This document shows positions 23,209 to 39,449 of a stretch of DNA of 39,449 bases, piece by piece. The first letter of the stretch is position 1, and each line of letters opens with the position of its first letter. The translations under genes were made by a program, and so were the position numbers. The notes below the pieces were generated by a model, which was given only the letters and a program-made list of their open reading frames with translations, was not told the DNA's origin and made no database searches. The stretch spans positions 1-39,449 of the forward strand of contig CAIYES010000571.1 of NCBI GenBank assembly GCA_903925275.1, read 5' to 3'. Origin of the DNA: an uncultured Bacteroidales bacterium (lineage in GTDB: Bacteria > Bacteroidota > Bacteroidia > Bacteroidales > FEN-979).

Positions 23209-23889
23209 TTATCTTTTTAGCAATCTCAACGACATCTTCAGGCCGATCACAGGATTTTCAAGGGAGATCCTGGATGGAAACCCTGCTTGGTAATTCTGGT
23301 ATGAAATAATCACCGGATCGGCTATGGTCGATTTTCCGGTGGTTGTATACAGGGTATCACCTGATGGGGAAAAGGTTTCCCAGATTTTATATCTGCCTGT
23401 TTTGGCGTAGAATACCTGGTTGTTGGTTGCGGTTTGCCGGTAAAATTTCTCATGTTGAACCGGATTTATGCCGGTCAATAGTCTGAAATCTGTTTCAAGG
23501 ATTTTGATCAATGCTTTTTTATTTAACGATTCAAAGCAGGAAATAACGCTGAAACTGTCATACTTCATCTCAAGATCAAAAAATGTCATGCCGATTTCAT
23601 TGGCGAAAACAATCCTGTAAACTTCATCTTTTATTTCCTTCTCTTGTTGAGAAAGAGTGGTTGGAGCAACCGAATCCATCCGCTTTATCAGCATTAAACC
23701 GGTAAGATGATGTTTTTTGATATCAAGCGTGGCTTTGAAGAGATGGCTTGTGACAGGTGGCACATAATGCGCTCCAGGCGACACTTGATGAACCTGTGAC
23801 ATGTCAGGGTTAATATGTAGTGGTTTGATGGAGACACAGCCCGCCACCGGTAAAATCAGCAGGAAACTAAGGAACCATGAACTTTTCAT
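23209..23889 (-). CDS. Lipoprotein at the end of the ketosynthase cluster (DUF3261-like by position)
   Basis: About 226 residues from the ATG at 23889, where a lipoprotein signal starts: hydrophobic stretch FLSFLLILPVAGC with lipidated Cys18. The remainder is a mixed alpha/beta domain that I cannot assign from motifs (seen: FKATLDIKKHHLTGLMLIK, FFDLEMKYDSFSV, YKIWETF). It overlaps the LolA-like gene by 23 nt. In aryl-polyene clusters a LolA-like protein is usually accompanied by a small lipoprotein (DUF3261), and the size and place fit, but the match was not tested. Likely a periplasmic partner in lipid transfer or surface display of the cluster product (inference). Confidence 0.7.
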   Translation of the reverse strand: MKSSWFLSFLLILPVAGCVSIKPLHINPDMSQVHQVSPGAHYVPPVTSHLFKATLDIKKHHLTGLMLIKRMDSVAPTTLSQQEKEIKDEVYRIVFANEIGMTFFDLEMKYDSFSVISCFESLNKKALIKILETDFRLLTGINPVQHEKFYRQTATNNQVFYAKTGRYKIWETFSPSGDTLYTTTGKSTIADPVIISYQNYQAGFPSRISLENPVIGLKMSLRLLKR

Positions 23890-24577
23890 CGGCAATAGGT
23901 TGGTTGAGTTTCTTATCAATGAAGTTGATTTTAGTACAATCGCCTCCCGGTTCTATCATTTCGAGGCGGTTGACAGAATAATCCTTCCGGTCGACATAGA
24001 TGACAATTTCTGAAAGTGACTCCTTCAGCTTCGGTGCAAGAGGTTTCAGTTTTACCACCCATGAAGAAGTATTGTATGAAAAAGTGGCCTGGAAATTTTT
24101 CTCATCCATGACCAAGGTTCCGCGGATGCTACCGAGAATGACACGGTTGATCTCCTGAAAAATTTTATTTGACTGAACACTGAACTGATTGACTTTGTTA
24201 TCGTCAATGATCGATATCTGGTCATTTCTGATGATGATGAGCCAGGTGAATGGTTGCATATATTCCCACCGAAGCAATTTTTCCTTTTTAAAGAAAAATT
24301 TCCCGGTTGAGATGATCTTTTCTTTGATCATGCTCATCTCTTTTTCCTGGATAAAATCGCAGGAGATGGTCTGGATCTTCTGAGCTGCGTCCCTGATATT
24401 GATTTTCAACTCCTCAATACTTGCCGCATTCATCGGCTTGTTTTGCGGAAAAACCGATACCGGGAAAGCTGTAAGAAATGTTGCTGCTATTGCGAAAGAA
24501 ATTATAAACGTTAACAACCGATGAGAACATAACCAATACCGGAATACAGTCCGTAGATATCCATATTGTTCAGGCAT
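23867..24577 (-). CDS. LolA-like outer-membrane lipid/lipoprotein carrier
   Basis: A 236-residue exported protein with an N-terminal hydrophobic signal (LLTFIISFAIAATFLTAFPVSV). The body has the LolA pattern: ISCDFIQEKEM, STGKFFFKKEKLLRWEYMQPF, IIIRNDQISIIDD, then repeated antiparallel strands ending in EIVIYVDRKDYSVNRLEMIEPGGD. LolA proteins are unclosed barrels that ferry acylated molecules through the periplasm. Dedicated copies occur in aryl-polyene and flexirubin clusters, where they are thought to move the product to the outer membrane. It overlaps the deacetylase gene by 8 nt and the downstream lipoprotein gene by 23 nt, so the three are translated as a tight unit. Confidence 0.85.
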   Translation of the reverse strand: MPEQYGYLRTVFRYWLCSHRLLTFIISFAIAATFLTAFPVSVFPQNKPMNAASIEELKINIRDAAQKIQTISCDFIQEKEMSMIKEKIISTGKFFFKKEKLLRWEYMQPFTWLIIIRNDQISIIDDNKVNQFSVQSNKIFQEINRVILGSIRGTLVMDEKNFQATFSYNTSSWVVKLKPLAPKLKESLSEIVIYVDRKDYSVNRLEMIEPGGDCTKINFIDKKLNQPIADEKFMVP

Positions 24578-25370
24578 AAGCGGGCATATTTAGCATTTTA
24601 TCGAGCGGAACAATCCTGAACCCTGCATCCTGAATCCCGGAAATCAATTCACCCAGATGAAGCTGCGTGAAGGGTGTGAAGTCGTGGAGGAGGATGACCG
24701 ACCCGGGCTTTAATTGTTTCAGGATACGGTTCATGATTTTTTTCGGATCGTTTCCCAGCGTATCGAACGAACGGATATTCCAGCAAACTGGCTGCCAGTG
24801 CATGTTTTTCAATGCCTTGCTGACCATTGGATTGACCACCCCGAATGGCGGACGAAAAAACAATGGCGATTTTCCGGTTATTTTTTTTATCAACTGATCA
24901 GTTTTCAGCATTTCAGCCTGCATCACACGCGACGAAAAGAGGTCGAACCATTTCGAGTGACTGAATGAATGGTTTCCGATCAAATGTCCTTCCTCATGCA
25001 TCCGTTTTATCAATTGCTCATGGTCAGCAATGTTTTTTCCGATGCAGAAAAAAGTTGCTTTAACATGGTACATGTCAAGAATATCAAGTACTACCGGGGT
25101 TTTTTCGGGATCAGGTCCATCATCAAAGGTAATGGCCACCAATTTTTCATCTGTTATTCCATGGCAAATTACACGATGATGAAAGTTTGTACAGGGCAGA
25201 AAAGCCATAACAAATGAAATTCCGAAATACAAAATGAACAGGAGTGCATAAAACAGCAAGGCATGTGCATGAAACAAATTAACGGTGGAGTTGCCGAAAA
25301 AAATATTCCATAGGTTCAGGCTCAGCAGGGTGATGAAAAACAGCATCGTTACACGACGGAAGGTCAGCAT
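24570..25370 (-). CDS. Membrane-anchored NodB-type polysaccharide deacetylase
   Basis: A 266-residue protein. Two hydrophobic segments (about 8-25 and 35-60) anchor it to the inner membrane. The catalytic domain has TFDDGPDP (residues 81-88), HSFSH (metal ligands H134 and H138) and FFRPPFGVVNP, all hallmarks of carbohydrate esterase family 4. The family removes N-acetyl groups from glycans in a metal-dependent way. In flexirubin/aryl-polyene clusters a NodB protein is a frequent member whose substrate is not established. Its ATG follows the KS-like gene stop without a gap, and the LolA-like gene overlaps its end by 8 nt, so it belongs to the operon. Confidence 0.88.
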   Translation of the reverse strand: MLTFRRVTMLFFITLLSLNLWNIFFGNSTVNLFHAHALLFYALLFILYFGISFVMAFLPCTNFHHRVICHGITDEKLVAITFDDGPDPEKTPVVLDILDMYHVKATFFCIGKNIADHEQLIKRMHEEGHLIGNHSFSHSKWFDLFSSRVMQAEMLKTDQLIKKITGKSPLFFRPPFGVVNPMVSKALKNMHWQPVCWNIRSFDTLGNDPKKIMNRILKQLKPGSVILLHDFTPFTQLHLGELISGIQDAGFRIVPLDKMLNMPAYA

Positions 25371-38480: not shown

Positions 38481-38528
38481 ATTGCCTACTGCCTACTGCC
38501 TACTGCCTACTGCCTACTGCCTATTGCC
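38481..38528 (-). repeat. Heptamer tandem array (TAGGCAG)
   Basis: About seven 7-base units, CTGCCTA on the plus strand and TAGGCAG on the minus strand. The first TAG on the minus strand is the stop codon of the dehydratase gene (38521). It fills the gap to the next gene start at 38460. Confidence 0.92.
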
Positions 38529-38934
38529 TTATTAAAAAAATCTTCAATTCACACCCTGCGATCAGCCGTTCTCCCAGGAAAACCTCGCCCTGCACAATAG
38601 TGGCTTCAAACACTTCGTGCAAAACAGTTATTCGTGTGGTAATCTCCTGCCCGACCTTCGGAAAGCCTGTAATTTTAAGGTTCCTGATGCCGCCGATAAA
38701 ACCAAGGGGTGCTTTTCCACCGGAATTTCCCGGTTTTGAACCTACGCCTGCTGCTGCAGTTTGTGCCATATTTTCAATCAGACCTGGCTCGCGAAACTCT
38801 CCTTGTTCACAAAAAACATTATCTTCACGAATCAGGAAGGCAGTAACTGTTGTTCCGTTACCTACCTCAACCAACCGGTCGACCATCACCATTGGAGGCT
38901 TTTGCGGGATGTTTATTTCTTCAGATGATGCCAT
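38521..38934 (-). CDS. Hotdog-fold 3-hydroxyacyl-ACP dehydratase-like protein
   Basis: About 137 residues from the ATG at 38934, since the residues encoded upstream belong to shadow sequence inside the radical SAM gene; it overlaps that gene by 22 nt. PPMVMVDRLVEV, NVFCEQGEFREPGLIENMAQTAAA and LGFIGGIRNLKITGFPKVGQ align with FabZ/FabA-type dehydratases of aryl-polyene and flexirubin clusters. The His found in FabZ (HFPG) is not present; EFREPGLIEN occupies the spot. It may still dehydrate 3-hydroxyacyl-ACP to make the double bonds, or be a non-catalytic partner. The stop codon comes from the heptamer array. Confidence 0.83.
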   Translation of the reverse strand: MASSEEINIPQKPPMVMVDRLVEVGNGTTVTAFLIREDNVFCEQGEFREPGLIENMAQTAAAGVGSKPGNSGGKAPLGFIGGIRNLKITGFPKVGQEITTRITVLHEVFEATIVQGEVFLGERLIAGCELKIFLIRQ

Positions 38935-39449
38935 AAGGATCCTTTGCGTTTTCTGCTTCTGAGGCGGTTCATCGCTGTTGCAACATCTTCGTCGGGAAAT
39001 ACCCACCGGCGTCCGGTTTTATCAGCACGTTCCTTCAGCGTTTCGTAATTAATATCCGGGGCGATGTAATAAACCGGATCGAGCAGGTCATCTTCCGCGC
39101 GAATAATTCCTTGTTCAAGCGCTATTTTATGCAGCACTGTGCCAGGATATATGCGCATGCCGATAAAGGGAAAGAAAACAGTATTTTCGATGCGTTTTGA
39201 ATTTTCAAAGCTTTCGTTGATGGTAGCTTCTGTTTCTCCATACCCGCCAATAATCATGAAGTGACAGAAATAGATACCCGCCTGGTTGCAATAATCTGAA
39301 ACCCTCACCACCTCTGCTGCATCAAAGTGTTTCCCATAGTGTTTAAGGGTGGTATCCGATAGCGATTCAGTACCGAATTCGATGTGGGTCAAACCCGCAT
39401 CGGCAAACAATTTTAAATTTTCCAACGACAAATTGTGTGGTGAAAAATA
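38913..39449 (-). CDS. Radical SAM protein (probably B12-binding type), C-terminal part, 5' end outside window
   Basis: The frame stays open to the right edge of the window (YFSPHNL precedes the first possible start), so only about 178 C-terminal residues are visible. TYPICAL radical SAM barrel strands are seen: LTHIEFGTESLSD, GIYFCHFMIIGGYGET, and FFPFIGMRIYPGTVLHKIA, a late pattern of the BchE/P-methylase-like, Elp3-type core. The SAM cluster Cys and any cobalamin domain lie outside. Such enzymes add methyl groups or form rings. Its 22-nt overlap with the dehydratase gene ties it to the cluster, implying an unusual modification of the chain or head group. Confidence 0.8.
   Translation of the reverse strand, partial: YFSPHNLSLENLKLFADAGLTHIEFGTESLSDTTLKHYGKHFDAAEVVRVSDYCNQAGIYFCHFMIIGGYGETEATINESFENSKRIENTVFFPFIGMRIYPGTVLHKIALEQGIIRAEDDLLDPVYYIAPDINYETLKERADKTGRRWVFPDEDVATAMNRLRSRKRKGSLWHHLKK

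Follow-up and report, generated by a model that had tools for sequence, protein, structure and literature searches.

The minus-strand gene cluster at positions 23209-39449 of the window, a stretch of 39,449 nucleotides that is the entire contig C571 in the draft genome (G000; 574 contigs, 5.65 Mb) of an uncultured Bacteroidales bacterium, is, judging from its genes, the downstream and larger part of a flx/dar-type aryl-polyene cluster, of the kind behind the orange flexirubin pigments, and as such known in kind. Since DarA and DarB were not found, it counts as a flx-type aryl-polyene cluster and not as a demonstrated flexirubin producer. We consider it likely that the cluster makes an aryl polyene whose ring may be methylated by a B12 radical S-adenosylmethionine (SAM) enzyme and whose chain would be coupled by the acyltransferase DarH to an acceptor other than a resorcinol. 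The product is probably an altered form of such a pigment and not an entirely new type of molecule.

Genes in the window were named with Pfam and NCBIfam models at their curated cut-offs. We assigned the segment to the flx/dar clusters because four kinds of its proteins pass flexirubin/dialkylresorcinol NCBIfam cut-offs and because the gene order is canonical. The four are the DarG family (two copies), DarH (two copies), LolA2_flexi and LolB2_flexi, all encoded on the minus strand. The DarG genes (38038..38460 and 36474..36917, the second probably starting at about 36875) reach 102.6 and 113.1 bits with NF053536 (cut-off 70). This family model is the only one they pass; the flexirubin equivalog NF053545 gives 111-112 bits at a cut-off of 170. 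The DarH acyltransferases, of the BtrH fold (36874..37878 and 35439..36461), score 416.9 and 401.5 bits with NF053550 (cut-off 300). The flexirubin-type periplasmic carrier LolA2 (23867..24577) scores 209 bits with NF053544 (cut-off 125), and the flexirubin-type LolB2 (23209..23919), at the left end of the cluster, 88 bits with NF053540 (cut-off 60).

In the order of transcription the window's genes are the radical SAM fragment, hotdog, DarG, DarH, DarG, DarH, ATP-binding cassette (ABC) ATPase, ABC permease, 4HBT, ketosynthase (KS) KSa3, its Cys-less partner KSb3, acyl carrier protein (ACP), KSa1, KSb1, KSa2, KSb2, NodB, LolA2 and LolB2. DarH was over its cut-off in 31 of 395 genomes from across the phylum, namely G000 and 30 others, and we viewed its surroundings in all 30 (in 19 as a single 20-kb stretch, in which upstream genes are not wholly visible). 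The order in G266 and G286 runs FlxA, an additional gene x, FlxB, FlxC, ACP, acyltransferase, DarA, DarB, two FabZ-like genes, DarG, DarH, two ABC genes, 4HBT, KSa3, KSb3, ACP, KSa, KSb, NodB, LolA, LolB, hotdog, glycosyltransferase (GT), MMPL, CrtD, C45 and FlxY, with a few small extra genes besides. The cluster of the window has the same order, with a radical SAM gene in place of DarA-DarB, one FabZ-like gene instead of two, and the DarG-DarH and KS pairs doubled. The order was also set side by side with those of G270, G313 and G159, which are themselves rearranged; in G313, G329, G360, G451 and G077 the dar and flx genes are apart or out of view. The likeness to aryl-polyene/flexirubin clusters that an earlier note on this DNA had pointed out is stronger than stated there, the flx/dar gene order being kept but for a small number of additional or absent genes.

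The right end of C571 cuts the radical SAM gene, leaving the C-terminal 178 residues of a B12-binding protein in the window (38913..39449; TIGR04072, rSAM_ladder_B12, model positions 263-441, 152.8 bits). The N-terminal part was found at the end of a 3.6-kb contig, C87 (G000:C87:3-740; model positions 1-238, 226.5 bits), which also encodes an acyltransferase, an ACP and a KS (FlxC). Against the intact 454-residue protein of the relative G008, which passes the TIGR04072 cut-off of 360 with 428 bits, the two parts of the split protein align with residues 277-454 (the window) and 3-252 (C87) at 90% and 85% identity, and about 24 residues fall in the assembly gap between C87 and C571. Contig C46 terminates with genes for an ammonia-lyase, 92% identical to G008 FlxA (829 bits, cut-off 700), and a reductase, 83% identical to G008 FlxB (400 bits, cut-off 340). 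FlxY is encoded at G000:C433:4521-5858 (80% identical to G008 FlxY; 717 bits, cut-off 520), and the MMPL gene of G000 lies at C433:21498-25385 in a companion cluster. The order C46-C87-C571 was set by comparison with relatives, and the contigs are not physically joined. No flexirubin model is dedicated to FlxC or the acyltransferase, and both were named by position.

The genes of cluster A in the relatives G008, G020 and G025 are, in order, FlxA, FlxB, FlxC KS, ACP, acyltransferase, radical SAM, hotdog, DarG/DarH, ABC, 4HBT, KSa3, KSb3, ACP, KSa1, KSb1, KSa2, KSb2, NodB, LolA2 and LolB2. G020 has two additional genes between KSb1 and KSa2, and its FlxB is hidden in the gene listing; long spurious open reading frames (ORFs) can mask short genes, so that individual listings lack some hotdog, DarG and ACP genes. 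The G008 acyltransferase is a Lip_A_acyltrans protein (36 bits, cut-off 22), and the B12-binding (PF02310, 40 bits, cut-off 32) and Radical_SAM domains of the G008 radical SAM protein are both over their Pfam cut-offs. The companion, cluster B, directly follows LolB2 in G020 and G025, lies about 20 kb away in G008, and in G000 is spread over C11 and C433. In G008, where some of its genes were identified by eye only, it comprises hotdog and 4HBT genes, two enoyl-CoA hydratases, a DarB-like 3-ketoacyl-ACP synthase III (KAS III), a radical SAM-3HCDH protein, FabF, ACP, FabD, radical SAM, GT, MMPL-acyltransferase-methyltransferase, CrtD-like, C45 hydrolase, radical SAM and O-methyltransferase-like genes, and further an ABC permease, DarG, DarH, ACP, sulfotransferase and FlxY. 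Cluster B (G000:C433; G008:C89:92634-125396, L082-L084) has its own DarG-DarH and a sulfotransferase, with four radical SAM genes on C433. The MMPL proteins L078:3498-7385 (G000:C433), L083:9233-13129 and L137:9055-12894 carry C-terminal acyltransferase and methyltransferase domains; the methyltransferase domain is present in G329, and the G270 protein has the acyltransferase only.

These genes bear on the earlier note's argument for a different product. It was right that ammonia lyase, ligase and MMPL genes lie outside the window, but they are present on C46 and C433, and their absence implies no other product: the lyase opens cluster A in the relatives, and the ligase and MMPL genes belong to the companion cluster. 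The earlier note had itself named the finding of the missing standard genes next to the window as a refutation, and for the class of pathway this refutation applies. Nor does ABC export together with BtrH-like enzymes point elsewhere, because the dar operon of Azoarcus (PMC3949708; here and below, statements about cited papers hold for excerpts of them) and canonical flx clusters have both as well. What survives of the different product is the acceptor part, DarB being absent by model and DarA by BLAST.

The window's family comprises 37 genomes (G000-G036) within a set of 61 relatives. TIGR04072 was over its cut-off in 34 of the 61, 32 of them in the family, and in 33 of the 344 genomes in a draw from Bacteroidales, the order of the window; G000's own copy fails the cut-off because it is split by contig ends. 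None of the 395 phylum genomes had a protein over the cut-off; among the rows listed, the order is represented by G000 and only five other genomes. Outside the family we looked at 30 contexts (28 from the order draw, G056 and G039). Flx genes or a FabZ-like gene adjoin the radical SAM gene in 28 of them, 27 found by script and one, L209, with the row FabZ-like, radical SAM, acyltransferase, ACP and FlxC, masked by a long overlapping ORF. Among 27 DarH loci (not all of the family), the radical SAM gene is present at the script's threshold in 22; in 21 of these its distance upstream of DarH is 0.8-1.4 kb, and in L035 it is 9.3 kb. Of the other five, L027 and L033 are cut by a contig end, L024 has a truncated edge copy, and in L019 and L023 the place is taken by other genes. 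The acyltransferase and the radical SAM enzyme are encoded in a single frame in 6 of these 27 loci (5 assemblies, L034 and L036 being from one), and also in G020 and G025; both fused portions are full-length or almost full-length in L029, L030, L031, L043, G020 and G025, and L034 and L036 begin at a contig edge. Because they are fused in some loci, the gene arrangement argues that the two enzymes act together. We found no relevant report on TIGR04072 or an association of radical SAM enzymes with flexirubin or aryl polyenes in the open-access literature, preprints excluded, as judged by titles and abstract openings. For genome mining, these data mean that many flx clusters of Bacteroidales differ regularly from those of the Flavobacterium/Chitinophaga type.

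The distribution of DarA and DarB is the second peculiarity of the lineage. In the phylum draw, DarB was found at 1e-100 in all 30 DarH genomes other than G000 and exceeded its cut-off of 550 in 29 of these (G077 reaches 518.7), that is in 29 of the 395 genomes. By comparison, DarH was over its cut-off in 36 of the 37 family genomes (none in G024), and DarB in none of the 61 relatives and hence in none of the family, the best score being 103 bits. DarA is matched by no Pfam or NCBIfam model and is named by its position beside DarB. With G266 DarA as BLAST query, nothing was found in the 37 family genomes, and among the 61 relatives there was one weak match, outside the family (G054); the same query finds counterparts of 41-45% identity in L186, L189 and L212 and so reaches within the order. 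None of the 27 DarH loci has DarA or DarB. Two DarH genes are present in 18 of these loci and one in 9, with the single-DarH loci L023, L034 and L036 cut by contig ends. DarH without DarB, within the fetched stretch, also occurs in 7 of the 30 contexts outside the family, among them G469 (L039/L200), which carries two DarH genes.

The pair of a BtrH-like protein and a protein that the earlier note called HTH-like (helix-turn-helix) is real and occurs twice, but the HTH-like proteins belong to the DarG family. The two copies in the window are 57% identical for DarH and 39% for DarG. DarH of the family splits into two clades (97* each; quick trees with support from the Shimodaira-Hasegawa-like approximate likelihood-ratio test only, without bootstrap, long branches flagged), and the single-copy loci L038 and L043 fall in the DarH_2 clade. 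From these trees the duplication probably predates the sampled members, with one copy lost in some. DarH kept and doubled without DarA and DarB is a real peculiarity. Because DarA and DarB are absent, the acyl chain is probably passed to something other than the classical dialkylresorcinol that these two enzymes make. A DarG-DarH-ABC module that is retained and doubled without the resorcinol synthases raises the question of what DarH really acylates. As side observations, upstream of DarH_1 the loci L019 and L035 have an opposite-strand block with C45, CrtD-like, MMPL, LolB2 and LolA2 homologues inside cluster A (in L019 also with ACP and FlxC KS homologues), as though a piece of another flx-like cluster had entered at this place. 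The contig of L027 is titled Alphaproteobacteria and its DarH is 80% identical to that of the window, perhaps a mislabelled metagenome-assembled genome.

The DarH proteins of the window consist of BtrH_N and DUF4872 (Pfam). Cys14 and His127 are present in 28 of 28 aligned sequences and Asp143 in 27. The predicted structure (mean predicted local distance difference test score, pLDDT, 83) matches AziU3, CtaG and CcbD; a search of PDB sequences with a DarH profile gave no match, and the likeness is by fold only. CtaG is proposed to move 4-hydroxybenzoate off its carrier protein and onto the load carried by a second one (PMC6772006). Because of these fold matches, including this proposed carrier-to-carrier transferase, we suggest that DarH likely catalyses carrier-dependent acyl transfer, forming an ester or an amide. 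The idea that DarG is an analogue of AziU2, the partner of AziU3, was dropped; the sole match of a DarG profile among PDB sequences was a designed helical bundle (E 0.19).

For the radical SAM enzyme, the cysteines of the CxxxCxxC motif (Cys203, Cys207 and Cys210) are invariant in 15 relatives and present in the C87 part. A PDB sequence search returned TsrM first (2e-24), followed by AprD4, CysS, 9ccb (MgmA by its title) and TokK. TsrM was also the best fold match (E 3e-23, template-modelling score 0.78 on the query, root-mean-square deviation 6.2) of an AlphaFold2 model of the G008 protein (L021) with a mean pLDDT of 77, falling below 50 around the Fe-S cysteines, and a predicted template-modelling score (pTM) of 0.75. 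TsrM (6wte/6wtf) is only 20% identical in the fold alignment and methylates tryptophan at C2, according to the PDB titles. Among the NCBIfam models the second-highest score is that of BzaD (202 bits), which we take to be an aromatic-ring C-methylase. From these likenesses we tentatively suggest, with somewhat less than even confidence, that the enzyme is a C-methylase of the phenol head group. In flexirubin the ring methyl derives from methionine and one ring deuterium is lost from labelled tyrosine (PMC3992019), and in the E. coli aryl polyene the head group is likely methylated by ApeB (PMC8253772). A search for FlxJ (NF053543, the flexirubin methyltransferase family) found none at 1e-20 in the 37 family genomes and none at 1e-3 in 71 fetched loci. 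This absence from radical SAM clusters is weak support because FlxJ is rare in canonical clusters too. The idea that the radical SAM enzyme replaces FlxJ is consistent with these data and was not kept, there being too few FlxJ cases for exclusion and a methyltransferase domain in the MMPL protein itself.

From the gene identities and order, the duplications, the presence and absence of genes, the fusions and the nearest folds we infer the following product, methylation and acceptor. FlxA would deaminate tyrosine to coumarate, and a Chitinophaga enzyme of this type has been assayed (PMC3992019). FlxY would activate the coumarate, which the KS/Cys-less KS pairs with the ACPs, the reductase (FlxB) and the dehydratase would extend to an aryl polyene. 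The inner-membrane acyltransferase and the DarH enzymes (Cys-His-Asp, with a fold for carrier-bound acyl groups) would couple the chain to its acceptor, and the ABC/MMPL pumps with LolA2/LolB2 would move the product to the outer membrane. The changes peculiar to the lineage would be the B12 radical SAM enzyme, most likely as head-group C-methylase, and the doubled DarG-DarH without DarA/DarB. A fuller case, an aryl polyene with a head group C-methylated by the B12 radical SAM enzyme together with the flx acyltransferase, to which it is fused in some species, and in which two DarG-DarH pairs attach chains, perhaps two on one acceptor, to a non-resorcinol acceptor in an undescribed class of pigment, we consider unlikely as a whole. 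If true, TIGR04072, whose name refers to ladderane lipids, would be a tailoring enzyme of aryl polyenes. The cluster puts this B12 radical SAM family, which takes its name from a ladderane pathway still unsolved, into a pathway of known scaffold and tailoring (ring methylation), where its reaction could be tested directly on a defined substrate.

Several observations weigh against this interpretation. The chemistry and the product are predicted from homology, and the dehydratase candidate is weakly FabZ-like. TIGR04072 is over its cut-off outside a recognisable flx cluster in L206 (G694) and L143 (G039:C41:125727-127106). DarA and DarB co-occur with the radical SAM gene in three of the 30 loci outside the family (L186, L189 and L212); since these carry all three, the idea that the radical SAM gene replaces DarA-DarB, suggested by comparing the family with G266/G286, was dropped. 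FlxJ-type genes are present in at least 2 of the 30 canonical clusters (437 and 558 bits, cut-off 560; parts are out of view), and FlxJ is over its cut-off in 2 of the 61 relatives, neither with a radical SAM gene at 1e-60, which chance could give. The methyltransferase domain of the MMPL proteins of G000 (C433) and G008 and the O-methyltransferase-like gene of the G008 companion cluster are rivals that might methylate the ring, and ring methylation was rated lower because the MMPL protein carries a methyltransferase domain of its own.

The last point also favours the idea that the radical SAM enzyme acts on the polyene chain and not on the ring, by methylation or by another modification such as oxidation or dehydration. 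The name given to the family by NCBI connects it with lipid/ladderane clusters, and for a lipid cluster of Kuenenia the B12 radical SAM protein Kuste2803 has been described (PMC2649909; compared by description). Fusion to an acyltransferase suggests a late, acyl-bound substrate. B12 radical SAM chemistry is not limited to methylation, and both AprD4, a dehydratase, and OxsB are among the near folds. However, TsrM, which is closest in fold and sequence, is an aromatic C-methylase, and BzaD, the second-best model, presumably is one too. We therefore regard chain modification as somewhat unlikely, and the ring methylation of flexirubin heads from methionine (PMC3992019) also speaks against it.

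A classical flexirubin, for which the distant DarB-like enzyme encoded in the companion cluster would supply a dialkylresorcinol acceptor, is quite unlikely. A KAS III of the StlD/DarB family is found in that cluster (107 and 91 bits in G008) and on G000:C11 (82 bits), which counts against a non-resorcinol acceptor, and the DarG, DarH, ABC and second KS pair known from dar modules are retained. These scores are far below the DarB cut-off of 550, which no relative passes whereas 29 of the 395 phylum genomes do. DarA was not detected by BLAST in the 37 family genomes, and the neighbours of the G008 KAS III are enoyl-CoA hydratases and a radical SAM-3HCDH protein, not DarA. Still more improbable is an unrelated product in place of an aryl polyene, such as the amino compound or lipid with an N- or O-acyl group that the earlier note had suggested as a possibility: the BtrH-fold enzymes, ABC export and the absence of DarA/DarB would fit it, but the counterparts of FlxA, FlxB, FlxC, LolA2 and LolB2 and the flx gene order speak for an aryl polyene. 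Cyclisation of the polyene by the radical SAM enzyme to a ladderane-like or carbocyclic lipid with an aryl head is barely credible, for although the family name and the ligase, phytoene-desaturase-like and radical SAM genes of the companion cluster, of kinds named for Kuenenia, would suit it, the CrtD-like, GT, MMPL and FlxY genes also belong to canonical flexirubin clusters and give no pointer to ladderanes, Desulfotalea has clusters syntenic with those of Kuenenia and no reported ladderanes (PMC2649909), and the nearest fold is a methylase.

Among characterised systems, the closest to the preferred aryl-polyene assignment are the flexirubin clusters of Chitinophaga pinensis (flxA-flxY with darAB) and Flavobacterium johnsoniae (PMC3992019), which likewise have a FlxA lyase, a reductase, several KS, a dehydratase, a thioesterase, a polysaccharide deacetylase, an acyltransferase, LolA, a glycosyltransferase, an exporter and FlxY. 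The lineage of the window differs from them in the B12 radical SAM gene between acyltransferase and dehydratase, the absence of DarA/DarB, the doubled DarG-DarH and KS pairs, one FabZ-like gene rather than two, and a ligase and MMPL gene located in cluster B. In Azoarcus BH72 the dar operon shares the ABC ATPase and permease, a BtrH-like protein, KS and ACP, but has DarA and DarB, neither of which was found in the lineage of the window (PMC3949708). The E. coli ape cluster is similar in its KS and chain-length factor, ACPs, dehydratase, thioesterase, acyltransferases, LolA/LolB-like proteins and resistance-nodulation-division (RND) exporter; there too the head group is methylated, likely by the SAM-dependent ApeB where here the B12 radical SAM enzyme possibly does so, and its starter is 4-hydroxybenzoate, unlike that of the window's cluster (PMC8253772). 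The ladderane-candidate cluster of Kuenenia and the clusters of Desulfotalea share, by description, Cys-less KS paralogues, a polysaccharide deacetylase, phytoene-dehydrogenase-like and phenylacetyl-CoA-ligase-like genes and, in Kuenenia, the B12 radical SAM protein; the excerpted description mentions no ammonia-lyase, DarG/H or flexirubin Lol genes (PMC2649909). Ladderane-labelled clusters occur in several non-anammox phyla, possibly serving unknown functions (PMC9902471).

The KS genes comprise three pairs. In an alignment anchored on FabF, KSa3 (31694..32902; PF00109/PF02801), KSa1 (29356..30771) and KSa2 (26548..27873) keep the Cys-His-Lys-His residues, whereas KSb1 (27995..29053; PF13723), KSb2 (25371..26486) and the short KSb3 (31042..31734, 230 residues) carry Thr, Gly and Thr at the Cys position. 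The count of three active and three Cys-less proteins made before any such alignment is therefore borne out. The duplication of both the KS pair and the BtrH pair, noted before, also holds, with identities of 48% for KSa1/KSa2 and 45% for KSb1/KSb2 beside those given for DarG and DarH. KSa1 clusters with the KS of other genomes of the order (96*) and KSa2 forms its own clade (98*), and on this separation, in a quick tree without bootstrap and with long branches flagged, the pair is not a recent tandem copy. Tandem arrays lie within or beside the KS genes at 29369-29575, 29071-29137 and 26644-26754. A 9-bp unit repeated 23 times encodes the C-terminal tail of KSa1, about 70 Asn-Ala-Gly/Asp residues, and a 30-bp unit encodes a repeat insert near the C-terminus of KSa2. 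KSa1 is longer in L019 (428 residues), L020 (438) and L035 (415) than in most relatives (about 400).

The segment up to the right contig end holds 19 minus-strand genes, many overlapping or abutting, in agreement with the some twenty first described and with their coordinates. The ACP, 4HBT, BtrH-like, ABC exporter, NodB and LolA genes reported from the letters alone were all recovered by Pfam and NCBIfam, and the radical SAM enzyme is there, truncated by the contig end. A hotdog gene is present as well (38521..39006), but the assignment as a dehydratase is less firm: its FabZ likeness is weak (27 bits with the NCBIfam model, cut-off 113), no Pfam model matches, and the protein is a likely dehydratase. 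This ORF overlaps the radical SAM gene, its true start is probably internal, and the gene is kept next to the radical SAM gene in relatives. The ABC transporter consists of an ATPase (34687..35439; PF00005, 55-58% to the cluster ABC ATPase of G286/G266) and an ABC-2 type permease (33383..34684; PF12698) with a counterpart in canonical clusters. The 4HBT thioesterase (32878..33291; PF13279) is over the TIGR00051 cut-off. The ACP (30778..31032; PF00550) scores 88 bits with NF006617 (cut-off 70), and the NodB-type polysaccharide deacetylase lies at 24570..25370 (PF01522). The titles of related records name lakes, many perhaps low in oxygen. More tandem arrays, with units of 7 to 32 bp, are found at 8070-8167, 13627-13687, 15267-15332 and 38479-38529, several of them in or near intergenic gaps.

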